From assembly GCA_018303505.1 (NCBI GenBank), contig JAGVYA010000005.1, forward strand, positions 1 to 37,358: a stretch of DNA of 37,358 nt, read 5' to 3'. The DNA is from Candidatus Woesearchaeota archaeon (GTDB lineage Archaea; Nanobdellota; Nanobdellia; Woesearchaeales; GW2011-AR4). This document shows positions 3,515 to 35,166 of this stretch, in pieces; the stretch's first letter is position 1, and every line of letters begins with the position of its first letter. The position numbers were made by a program, and so were the translations under genes. The notes beneath the pieces were generated by a model. That model ran no database searches, was not told the DNA's origin, and worked only from the letters and a program-made list of their open reading frames with translations.

Positions 3515-3619
3515 AATAAATACAAAAAATTCGCCGATTAAAATTCAAAAAACACGAGAGCGACTTTTTGCAGTATAGGTGAAGAAAGTAAACCGCTTTT
3601 GATGGTTATTGAATAAATA

Positions 3620-3686
3620 GGCGAGGCAAAATTTAGTGGCAGGCAAATTTTGCCGAGCAGTAAATATTGTCGCAAAGCGACGGATT
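3620..3686. repeat. Palindromic element, copy A (right half only)
   Basis: The sequence holds GGCAAAATTT, a loop with TGGCAG, then AAATTTTGCC (a perfect 10-bp stem) flanked by GCGAG and GAGCAGTAAATATT. It ends with the tip hairpin GTCGC-AAA-GCGAC and the terminus CGGATT. The mirror-image left arm expected between 3530 and 3615 is not recognisable, so this is a half element. It sits in the rnp2-psmA spacer, upstream of the psmA ribosome-binding site AGGAGGT at 3721-3727. Confidence 0.75.
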
Positions 3687-8094: not shown

Positions 8095-8222
8095 AATCCG
8101 CCTTCGGCAATAATTAGTAAATGCTCCACATTTATCGGGTATTCATTGAATCATTTCGAGGCGAAAATTCAATGGTGGGAGAATTTTCGCCGAGTGTAAA
8201 ATTTGTCGCGAAGCGACGGATT
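8095..8222. repeat. Palindromic element, copy B
   Basis: It starts AATCCG with tip GCCTTCGGC, and ends with tip GTCGC-GAA-GCGAC and CGGATT. The right arm is intact: GGCGAAAATTC, a loop with ATGGTGGGA, then GAATTTTCGCC. The left stem-loop has decayed. It fills most of the 8027-8295 gap, which has no gene. A TATA-like TTTTTATAG at 8265-8273 lies between it and the next start codon. Confidence 0.8.
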
Positions 8223-10867: not shown

Positions 10868-11008
10868 AATCCGTCGCTATGCGACAATATTTACTGCTCG
10901 GTTTTGCTTTTCTACCATATCGCAAAACCTCGCCAATATATTGGCAATGCATTCCGCCCAATGCGAGGGCGGCTATCTTATTGTAATTTGCGAAGCAAAT
11001 TACGGATT
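10868..11008. repeat. Palindromic element, copy C
   Basis: It starts AATCCG with tip GTCGC-TAT-GCGAC and ends with a tip AATTTGC-GAA-GCAAATT and CGGATT. The left stem-loop is intact: GGTTTTGC, a loop with TTCTACCATA, then GCAAAACC. Read on the minus strand, the left arm is almost the same as the right half of copy A, including the linker GAGCAGTAAATATT. The right stem-loop differs (GCCCAATGCGAGGGC). It fills the gap between the coiled-coil and the repeat-protein genes. Confidence 0.8.
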
Positions 11009-19788: not shown

Positions 19789-19937
19789 TGGGCCCACGGA
19801 GATTTGAACTCCAGACCTCCGGCTGGCCTAGAGAATTCTTGGATTCTTTACTTTGATACCAAAAATCTCGTATAAGACTTGCGTGTTCAAAGATACTTTT
19901 TGAACTCGGCGCTCTAACCAGCCTGAGCTATGGGCCC
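19789..19937 (-). tRNA. Probable tRNA-Ile (UAU) with two introns (29/30 and 37/38)
   Basis: The minus strand begins GGGCCCATAGCTCAG and ends CTCCGTGGGCCC-A; acceptor stem, D-arm GCTC/GAGC and T-arm TGGAG-TTCAAAT-CTCCG are all normal. The anticodon arm is rebuilt only if two introns are removed: 28 bases at 19879-19906 (inside the 5' stem strand, after CCG) and 46 bases at 19825-19870 (canonical site). The result is CCGGT-CTTATAA-GCCGG, anticodon TAT (window 19872-19874), and a 75-base tRNA. The first intron contains GTTCAAA/TTTGAAC, flanked by GCG/CGC, like a bulge-helix-bulge motif. Amino acid identity rests on this model. Confidence 0.72.
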
Positions 19938-20012: not shown

Positions 20013-20151
20013 AATCTGTCTGCGACGCATTTTAGTGCTCGGCTTTCGCTTCCTGCCAGTGAGTTGTGAGGCTCGTGAGATAAATCGAGGCAAAAATTCA
20101 ATGGCAGAAGAATTTTTGCCGAGTGTAGAATTTGTTGCGAAGCAACGGATT
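20013..20151. repeat. Palindromic element, copy D
   Basis: It starts AATCTG (one change from AATCCG) and ends with tip GTTGC-GAA-GCAAC and CGGATT. The right stem GGCAAAAATTC/GAATTTTTGCC encloses ATGGCAGAA. The left arm keeps AGTGCTCGGC and TTCCTGCCA but its stem is decayed, and the centre holds TGAGTTGTGAGGCTCGTGAGA. It lies between the tRNA-Ile and a small minus-strand gene. Confidence 0.8.
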
Positions 20152-21857: not shown

Positions 21858-21889
21858 TCGATTTTTAGAAATTTAATTTATAACCTTTC

Positions 21890-22135
21890 AATCCGCCTTC
21901 GGCATATTTTAGTGCTCGGCGTTACTTTTCTTCCATATCGTAACGCCTCGCCTATACATTATTACAATGTATTCGAGGCGAAAAATTAGTGGCAGGCAAT
22001 TTTTCGCCGAGTGTAAATGTTGTTGCGAAGTCCTAAAAAATTCCGTAGGAATTTTTTGGACACCAAAAATGCCCGACTTGTGAGCGAGTTCTCTTCGCTC
22101 ACCCGCATGCCACGCATTTTTTAGTGCAACGGATT
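21890..22135. repeat. Palindromic element, copy E, with nested insertion
   Basis: The left arm starts AATCCG, tip GCCTTCGGC, then stem GGCGTTAC/GTAACGCC around TTCTTCCATA. The centre is TATACATTATTACAATGTA. The right stem GGCGAAAAATT/AATTTTTCGCC encloses AGTGGCAGGC. The right tip is GTTGCGAAG followed by 96 foreign bases and then CAACGGATT. Removing the insert restores GTTGC-GAA-GCAAC exactly. It is the largest copy and fills the gap between the pilin-like gene and tpiA. Confidence 0.87.
22031..22126. mobile_element. 96-bp insert inside element copy E
   Basis: The block interrupts the right tip hairpin of copy E with no visible target duplication. It contains a hairpin TCC-TAAAAAATTCC-GTA-GGAATTTTTT-GGA and then a GAG-type hairpin, GTGAGCGA...TCGCTCAC. 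Its ends, TCCTAAAAAA and TTTTTTAGTG, are near inverted repeats. It codes for no protein. Confidence 0.6.
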
Positions 22136-24024: not shown

Positions 24025-24058
24025 TTTTATAATTATATTTTTTATTCTTTTTTAATTA

Positions 24059-24165
24059 AATCCGTTGCCTTCGGCAACAATATTTTGTGCTCGGCTTCGT
24101 TTTCCTGCCATTGAGTTGAACGCGAGCGTGCGAGCGTTCTCGCACGCAACTCACTCAGCCTCGCC
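24059..24165. repeat. Palindromic element, copy F (left half only)
   Basis: It starts AATCCG with tip GTTGCC-TTC-GGCAAC, linker AATATTTTGTG, then CTCGGC and the loop motif TTTTCCTGCCA, and reaches GCCTCGCC at 24158-24165. The stem between holds a GAG-type hairpin (24126-24147). No right arm follows. Confidence 0.7.
24126..24147. repeat. GAG-type hairpin inside copy F
   Basis: GCGTGCGAG-CGTT-CTCGCACGC is a perfect 9-bp stem. GTTG and CAAC flank it at 24115-24118 and 24147-24150. It sits where the stem-loop of the parent element should be, so it looks like a nested insertion or replacement. Confidence 0.6.
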
Positions 24166-24329
24166 TATAAATTTATTAAAACATTAAAAGCGGGTTACTT
24201 TCTTAGTGCTTACTTCCAAAGGTCGCTCTCGTTTTACTTCAAAATTTTTAATTTTGAAGTTCCCAAAAATCCTTTAGATTTTTTAGGATGTTGATTTTAT
24301 TTTTCATTGAAATTTTATAGCGTGTTGTA
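24166..24329. other. Non-coding spacer with perfect AT hairpin
   Basis: No gene is seen between copy F and the 52-residue gene. A perfect 11-bp stem, ACTTCAAAATT-TTT-AATTTTGAAGT, lies at 24236-24260, and a looser AAAAATC/GATTTTT stem at 24266-24284. The first could be a terminator-like or element-derived structure. Confidence 0.45.
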
Positions 24330-25589: not shown

Positions 25590-25669
25590 GCCTATTGCTC
25601 CTATTTTGCTGCTTATATATAAAGCTTGTGAAAAAAGGTAATTATTTAGCTTTATGAAGTAAATTTTTA

Positions 25670-25832
25670 AATCCGTGCTTCGCACAAAAAAATATTGTGC
25701 TCGGCTTTTTTTGTCTGCCACTAAAAAAAGCCAAGCCTATTTATTCATTAATTATTGAATAAATTCGAGGCAAAAATTAGTGGCAAGACAATTTTTGCCG
25801 AGTGTAAATTTTGTTAGCGAAGCGAACGGATT
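25670..25832. repeat. Palindromic element, copy G (most complete)
   Basis: It starts AATCCG, tip GTGC-TTC-GCAC; left stem GGCTTTTTTT, loop with TCTGCCACT, then AAAAAAAGCC. The centre is TATTTATTCATTAATTATTGAATAAAT. The right stem GGCAAAAATT/AATTTTTGCC encloses AGTGGCAAGAC; right tip GTTAGCGAAGCGAAC, then CGGATT. It lies just upstream of the zinc-ribbon/NYN operon. Both arms and both tips can still pair. The rest of the 25590-25911 gap has no gene. Confidence 0.88.
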
Positions 25833-25911
25833 AATATATCCCTTCAGGATACTAAAGTATTACGAAAAAAGCAATAAAAGAAAAATTTGAAATAAAAAAT
25901 CTGGAATTATC

Positions 25912-26173: not shown

Positions 26174-26239
26174 TCCAAGAAAATCCAGTGAGATGCGAGT
26201 GAGCTCGCGAACTCGCTCACATTCGACTGATTTTCTGGA
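26174..26239. repeat. GAG-type hairpin repeat, copy 2
   Basis: TCCAAGAAAATC at the left pairs with GATTTTCTGGA at the right, and GAGTGAGCTCGC with GCGAACTCGCTC in the centre. It closely matches the copies at 2919-2989 and 35097-35150 in the flanking GAAAATC/GATTTTC arms and the central GAG repeat. Confidence 0.65.
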
Positions 26240-26867: not shown

Positions 26868-26933
26868 TCGTACACCTCTTTTCCCAGCAAATAATGCGAT
26901 AATTTATTTCATTTATGATACTACTTTATAAAG

Positions 26934-26981
26934 TTTTCTAAAACTGAGGTTTTCTAAAACTGAAGTTTTCTAAAACTGAAG
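26934..26981 (+). repeat. Three tandem 16-bp palindromic repeats upstream of rpl10e
   Basis: The unit TTTTCTAAAACTGA(A/G)G occurs three times head to tail. Each joined unit contains AGTTTT-CT-AAAACT, a palindrome. They lie just upstream of a TATA-like GATTTAAAAATAAC (26995-27008) and 46 bases before the L10e start codon. They may be binding sites for a regulator of ribosomal protein L10e. Confidence 0.7.
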
Positions 26982-27026
26982 TTTAAACAGCAAAGATTTA
27001 AAAATAACCTAAAATTTCATATTAAC

Positions 27027-35089: not shown

Positions 35090-35096
35090 AAAACCC

Positions 35097-35150
35097 CGAA
35101 AATCAGACAGTTGTGAGCGAGTGAACTCACTCGCATTTCACTGATTTTCG
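35097..35150. repeat. GAG-type hairpin repeat, copy 3
   Basis: CGAAAATCAG pairs perfectly with CTGATTTTCG, and the centre GCGAGTG-AACT-CACTCGC makes an inner stem. The closest relative is the copy at 2919-2989. Located between the four-helix membrane protein and the AbrB/PIN pair. Confidence 0.65.
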
Positions 35151-35166
35151 ATGTTATTGATTCTGC

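Follow-up and report, generated by a model that had tools for sequence, protein, structure and literature searches.

The bcr1-type repeats of Bacillus cereus are intergenic repeats of about 150 nt with a conserved secondary structure, and mitochondria harbour double-hairpin elements, mobile hairpins which nest in one another. MITEs without known parents exist as well. According to the available part of a review (PMC10969869) prokaryotic MITEs are short, non-coding and dispersed, possess inverted ends, are flanked by target duplications and show insertion polymorphism. REP sequences and BIMEs, as presented in the accessible part of PMC3733652, are intergenic high-copy palindromes. For the maintenance of hairpins by template switching, the available part of PMC8794818 predicts that a single event changes both sides, that stems are extended and that sequence is inserted in one stem half.

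Features of each of these systems recur in a palindrome family of which seven copies were detected within the window, i.e. the whole analysed stretch of 37,358 nt (GCA_018303505.1, contig JAGVYA010000005.1), of a Candidatus Woesearchaeota archaeon. The family is likened to the bcr1-type repeats by description alone, and the hosts differ. The mitochondrial double-hairpin elements are organellar and much smaller, whereas the Woesearchaeota elements have a constant loop and constant joints. In contrast to the prokaryotic MITEs covered by the available part of PMC10969869, no parent transposon was found here, the core is structured with exchangeable hairpins, and there are two unrelated end pairs. 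Compared to the REP/BIME of the accessible part of PMC3733652 the elements are far larger, comprise several hairpins, are associated with target duplications and reside in a genome without a Y1 transposase. A REP foot (GTAG or CGTC) was not seen at the conserved arm base when read by eye, and the arms are not palindromes of 20-40 bp. The available part of PMC8794818 does not predict a G.A tandem restricted to one strand or a constant loop.

The element is polar and consists of an L arm followed by one of at least three right halves. Arms are approximately 68 nt long with several hairpins each; in the L arm, AATCCG is followed by a tip hairpin and then by an AT-rich joint, which ends in TGCTC (or a near variant); next come a loop hairpin containing CTGCCA and, finally, TCGCC. 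As its right half the element has either an R arm (built like the L arm but inverted, with ACACTC and TCGAA), a T tail containing a separate hairpin (form B) or a set of other hairpins. Form B is represented by the copies at 3555-3686 on the minus strand (L arm 3625-3654 and 3669-3686, T tail hairpin 3555-3604) and at 24059-24231 on the plus strand (T tail 24186-24231), the latter with a nested palindrome in its loop hairpin (24093-24160). The remaining copies are all located on the plus strand. Those at 8095-8222 and 20013-20151 have an intact R arm (8160-8191 and 8205-8222; 20089-20120 and 20134-20151) beside an eroded (tip 8095-8108) and a damaged L arm, respectively, and the latter copy adjoins a tRNA gene. 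The copy at 21890-22135 carries an L arm (21890-21947) and an R arm (21977-22008), with other palindromes inserted in its last tip. In the copy at 10868-11008, which the original prediction had singled out, an L arm with tip hairpin (10868-10885) and loop hairpin (10900-10929) is followed by a central palindrome (10932-10945), an alternative right half and an AATCCG/CGGATT closing. It offers one typical arm only, its right half being a different hairpin pair (10954-10972, 10983-11008). The seventh copy, at 25638-25863, is a complete mobile unit.

Some palindromes lie within the loops or tips of others, at 24093-24160 and 22035-22123 of the window and beyond it (L030 1660-1945; L028 7398; L031 3909); their motifs include TGAGTTG...CAACTCA, GTGAGCGAGT and ATGTCGATAAATTCC..., some of them identical in two copies. 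A second palindrome family with imperfect nested stems (GAAAATCAG ... GTGAGC ... CTGATTTTC) was found at 2928-2982, 26181-26235 and 35092-35155 of the window, and a 16-bp unit (AAGTTTTCTAAAACTG) is repeated three times head-to-tail at 26931-26984. Palindromes were also observed in tRNA genes of the same genome: the intron of a tRNA-His gene (L029 865-1028, minus strand, G000:C1) contains a GTGAC...GCTCAC palindrome, and a tRNA gene assigned to Leu (aag) by ARAGORN (L015 3664-3858, minus strand, G000:C35) carries a palindrome at the place of a short D-arm sequence in another tRNA of the set. An intron-containing tRNA gene at 19789-19937 (minus strand) of the window has an Rfam match and was missed by plain ARAGORN.

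The 226-bp unit at 25638-25863 reveals the transposon-like nature of the family. Its imperfect inverted ends of 22 bp (25638-25659, GTAATTATTTAGCTTTATGAAG; 25842-25863, inverted GTAATACTTTAGTATCCTGAAG) lie inside a perfect 8-bp target-site duplication GAAAAAAG (25630-25637 and 25864-25871) and enclose a core at 25670-25832 that is composed of an L arm and an R arm (hairpins 25703-25732, 25769-25799 and 25813-25832). A sister copy in L030 shares a near-identical core and has its own perfect 8-bp duplication TATTTCTA; these two copies of the same genome (G000) differ mainly by the insertion of a palindrome next to the tip hairpin and by a nested hairpin that takes the place of a loop. The copy of genome G018 (L111) is likewise flanked by a perfect 8-bp duplication, GTTTTTTG. 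Such a duplication was thus present in three of the four two-ended units read, L022 lacking a perfect one, while L306 showed one recognisable end only.

A second shell is formed by TAGTCAGCGACATAAGTAATTGGACA and its partner (TAGT..ACTA), with equal 3-bp flanks in 7/8 units compared to 8/56 in a cross-unit control. Since the core occurs both in the shell with 8-bp and in that with 3-bp target duplications, it represents a module found in two shells. A related form of the second shell also exists without the core, as double-hairpin elements of about 90 bp with TAG...CTA ends in G000, G001 and G016 (L325, L312, L317, L324 and L318, near 1500), for which 3-bp duplications were read by eye and no match to the core model was obtained. 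The stems of these core-less elements likewise vary in step (AAAAGACA/TGTCTTTT, AAGTGACA/TGTCACTT). Recognisable outer inverted ends of the two kinds are present in a minority of copies; most have AT-rich flanks only, which measure about 35 nt and may represent ends that have decayed. The outer ends were chosen post hoc, having first been noticed as flank motifs. When local alignment was used to detect them automatically, the signal was weak (best z 3.3), and automatic flank clustering placed 185/218 in one low-complexity cluster.

Insertion polymorphism was apparent at five sites (10868, 20012, 21888, 24055 and 25671), where the orthologous spacers of several relatives are devoid of the element; the comparison at 8115 and 3420 gave no spacer pair. 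At 10868 no element is present in G003, G011, G014, G015 and G016. The site of the copy at 20013-20151 lacks the element in two relatives and has a different filling in a third. At 21888 the spacer amounts to 6-19 nt in four of the five relatives compared and to 88 nt without the element in the fifth, at 24055 to 1 nt in G005, and at 25671 to 13 nt in G001 and G011. The copies are thus short, non-coding and dispersed, with terminal inverted repeats, target-site duplication and presence or absence at orthologous sites. Given the inverted ends and target duplications in both shells, the family consists of MITE-like mobile elements with one hairpin core in two shells. The original prediction, which had correctly recognised a covarying structure, omitted this transposon-like nature.

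The stems that it quoted as differing yet pairing were all located in the window: GGCAAAATTT/AAATTTTGCC at 3625-3654, GGCGAAAATTC/GAATTTTCGCC at 8160-8191, GGTTTTGC/GCAAAACC at 10900-10929, GGCGTTAC/GTAACGCC at 21918-21947 and GGCTTTTTTT/AAAAAAAGCC at 25703-25732. The quoted tips GTCGC, GTTGC(C) and GTGC were found as well. The copy at 10868-11008 folds much better than shuffled versions of itself, with z scores of -6.3 as RNA and -5.8 as DNA and 0/200 shuffles as good. Across 28 aligned arms, 91.1% of 380 stem cells were paired compared to 73.5% after shuffling, a fraction reached by 0/500 shuffles, although the alignment anchors were hand-made and anchors and model are biased towards structure. 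A slid-partner control yielded 37-46% paired cells. Two-sided changes amounted to 66 cells (20 when shuffled) and affected 10 of 14 pairs. Of the 218 distinct arms, 193 could be parsed; in these, Watson-Crick pairing of stem positions 4-8 reached 81.5% in L arms and 100% in R arms, compared to 31.9% and 81.0% after shuffling, respectively. The outer stem is a perfect 8-bp helix in 120/193 arms with 32 different 5' sequences. The loop was indeed found to vary little, with the CTGCCA hexamer in 131/193 arms, a variant of one or two letters in 53 and no recognisable motif in nine. The covariation with a near-constant loop is thus confirmed as real.

Relatedness of the copies survives such shuffling and, therefore, orthologous copies provide the stronger test of covariation. 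Fifteen sets of orthologous insertions with 39 arms were chosen by eye from their flanks. These flanks resemble each other far more than random pairs do (p 6e-13 to 1e-24), whereas the core arms barely exceed random likeness (25.7 vs 22.3, p 0.014): the hairpin sequences are entirely different, and the stems are still paired. Both hairpins could be parsed in 30/37 ortholog pairs, in which 74 stem pairs had changed on both sides and 57 were unchanged, besides 39 with another mismatch, five G.T or A.C steps and five unpaired in both. The loop motif was retained in 35/39 orthologous arms. Pairing is thus kept at fixed places during stem turnover, also between orthologous copies of different species, and the 74 two-sided changes bear out the claim that the pattern reflects more than recent copying alone. 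Homogenisation of arms within genomes was considered and rejected, the nearest-neighbour signal being weak: nearest neighbours came from the same genome for 73/93 arms in G000 (58.6 expected), for 5/21, 4/8 and 1/8 in other genomes and for none in the four smallest samples.

The loop hairpins of L arms contain five isolated A.C and two G.T beside 1126 Watson-Crick pairs, and a control of only 12 tRNAs from the same loci shows 7 G.T in 144 stem pairs. Since both pairs are rare, G.T versus A.C is uninformative as sole strand test. Among the imperfections, a tandem that reads T.C/C.T on the L strand is the most frequent, accounting for 38/46 internal two-by-two mismatches with no case of reverse polarity. 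It corresponds to a tandem G.A on the opposite strand, mostly in a Py-GA-Pu context. Similarly, 141 of 191 tip triloops read TTC and two GAA, so that the opposite strand carries C(GAA)G, a tip which is stable in DNA. Given these G.A tandems and C(GAA)G tips, the strand leaving the element outward probably folds better than its complement. That the fold may be recognised is supported by the strand specificity of the tandem mismatch, the orientation of the tips and the constant loop. Where the L strand is the sense strand, the TC/TC polarity was found in 3/18 parsed arms compared to 23/75, and GA/GA in 0/18; the polarity does not flip, which favours a property of the element rather than of the transcript, with few cases. 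Moreover, R arms have the opposite polarity within the same element.

Taken together, we presume with a probability of about 0.6 that the palindromes are a small non-autonomous MITE-like family of one Woesearchaeota-type family, the core of which acts as folded single-stranded DNA with stems rewritten by template switching. The core would act as a folded single DNA strand at each element end, the acting strand being the one leaving the element outward with C(GAA)G tips, tandem G.A pairs and a TGGCAG loop. A putative protein of the mobilising or host machinery would read the loop and the joints, so that only pairing would matter in the stems. The replication fork would copy one arm from the other, so that both sides change at once, and thereby create new perfect stems without G.T intermediates; it may also add nested hairpins. 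An ordinary structured RNA fits the data less well than a fold of the DNA strand whose pairing is maintained by templated rewriting, although stable G.A tandems and GAA tips are possible in RNA too and the tRNA wobble control is small (12 tRNAs). Furthermore, most copies are without recognisable outer ends, no transposase with such ends was found, template switching alone could account for the pairing, and a purely selfish element does not explain why the L end points to a start codon in about three of four cases.

A variant that accommodates this bias is appreciably less probable. It regards the core as portable and common to two unrelated shells, likewise read as folded DNA, with stems rewritten on the spot by template switching at a higher rate than the adjacent spacer changes, with position, loop and joints inherited but not the stem sequence, and with the copies at gene starts kept by the host.

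A cis-acting RNA is rather improbable. In this reading the element, once inserted, would have been retained as a structured leader or an intercistronic RNA for the gene downstream, with stem covariation arising from use of the RNA fold. The L end faces the start codon in a ratio of 47:16 for the own genome and of 59:19 for relatives, and the distance is most commonly 29-42 nt, as judged from a simple ORF caller with ORFs of at least 80 codons. Where both neighbouring genes run in one direction, the L strand is antisense in a ratio of 37:12 and 49:12, respectively, so that the mRNA strand is usually the one bearing the G.A tandems and GAA tips. Insertions also persist at orthologous spacers although their outer ends are mostly unrecognisable. 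Given the bias, some copies may have been taken over as leaders or intercistronic RNAs. However, such an RNA agrees poorly with the near absence of wobble pairs, with the unflipped TC/TC polarity in the small sample of sense-strand cases and the opposite polarity of R arms described above, and with the lack of any Rfam 15 family at gathering score in the window except one tRNA.

It seems unlikely that the structure has no function at all, arm-to-arm template switching keeping any palindrome perfect and the loop being constant because it is not copied. The instant two-sided changes, few intermediates, nested hairpins and stems evolving faster than flanks would all follow from it. According to the available part of PMC8794818 the mechanism is known for RNA genes and can create the same covariation pattern as selection on structure. 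The original prediction of selection for structure plus a recognised loop holds as far as the structure is kept through two-sided changes and the loop is near-constant, but the covariation alone is no proof of selection. Nevertheless, loop, joints and tip polarity are preserved across many species, and the mismatches are non-random, mostly the one tandem expected to be stable on one strand.

A transposase with the ends of these elements was not found in the genomes searched, which are incomplete, so that its absence is a weak argument. Among DDE transposases, the sole DDE_Tnp_1 (PF01609) locus of G000 is without such ends, and PF12762 was not detected in this genome. An IS481-like transposase gene below the NCBIfam cut-off, which adjoins a DDE_Tnp_1 gene (L290 2223-3110, G000:C60), has different ends as read by eye. 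In viral contigs the core pattern was found in six, but model matches were weak (best E 0.014) and the end motif occurred in none. Although the copies are intergenic palindromes, often in inverted pairs, and Y1 transposases occur in 14 of the 35 genomes searched, a REP/BIME-like system mobilised by a REP-associated Y1 transposase is highly improbable, as PF01797 has no match in G000 or G001 despite 104 arm matches (E<=1) in the former and 44 (E<=0.001) in the latter, the Y1 loci L067-L074 lack a core arm, and inverted ends with target duplications are at odds with such a system.

The family is abundant in its host, with 104 arm matches (model R1, E<=1) in a genome of 1.3 Mb on 77 contigs that is 88% complete. 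At E<=0.001 carriers comprise all 20 genomes of the genus, 9/16 others of the family and 0/23 from other families of the order. The named carriers among the matches listed (80 of at least 109 loci) are mostly Candidatus Woesearchaeota MAGs, many from groundwater, and include one further MAG labelled Nanoarchaeota; matches in unrelated bacteria are probably due to chance. No published description of the element family was found in the literature searched, most subscription papers lying outside that search.

This poorly known group of tiny archaea with small genomes gains a family of mobile elements for which no earlier description was found. Functional RNA structure is normally proven by covariation. 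In the present family, hundreds of copies combine strong covariation with near-missing wobble intermediates and whole-stem replacement between orthologs, and the family offers a natural test bed for distinguishing whether RNA is under selection, a DNA strand is under selection or mutation is templated.
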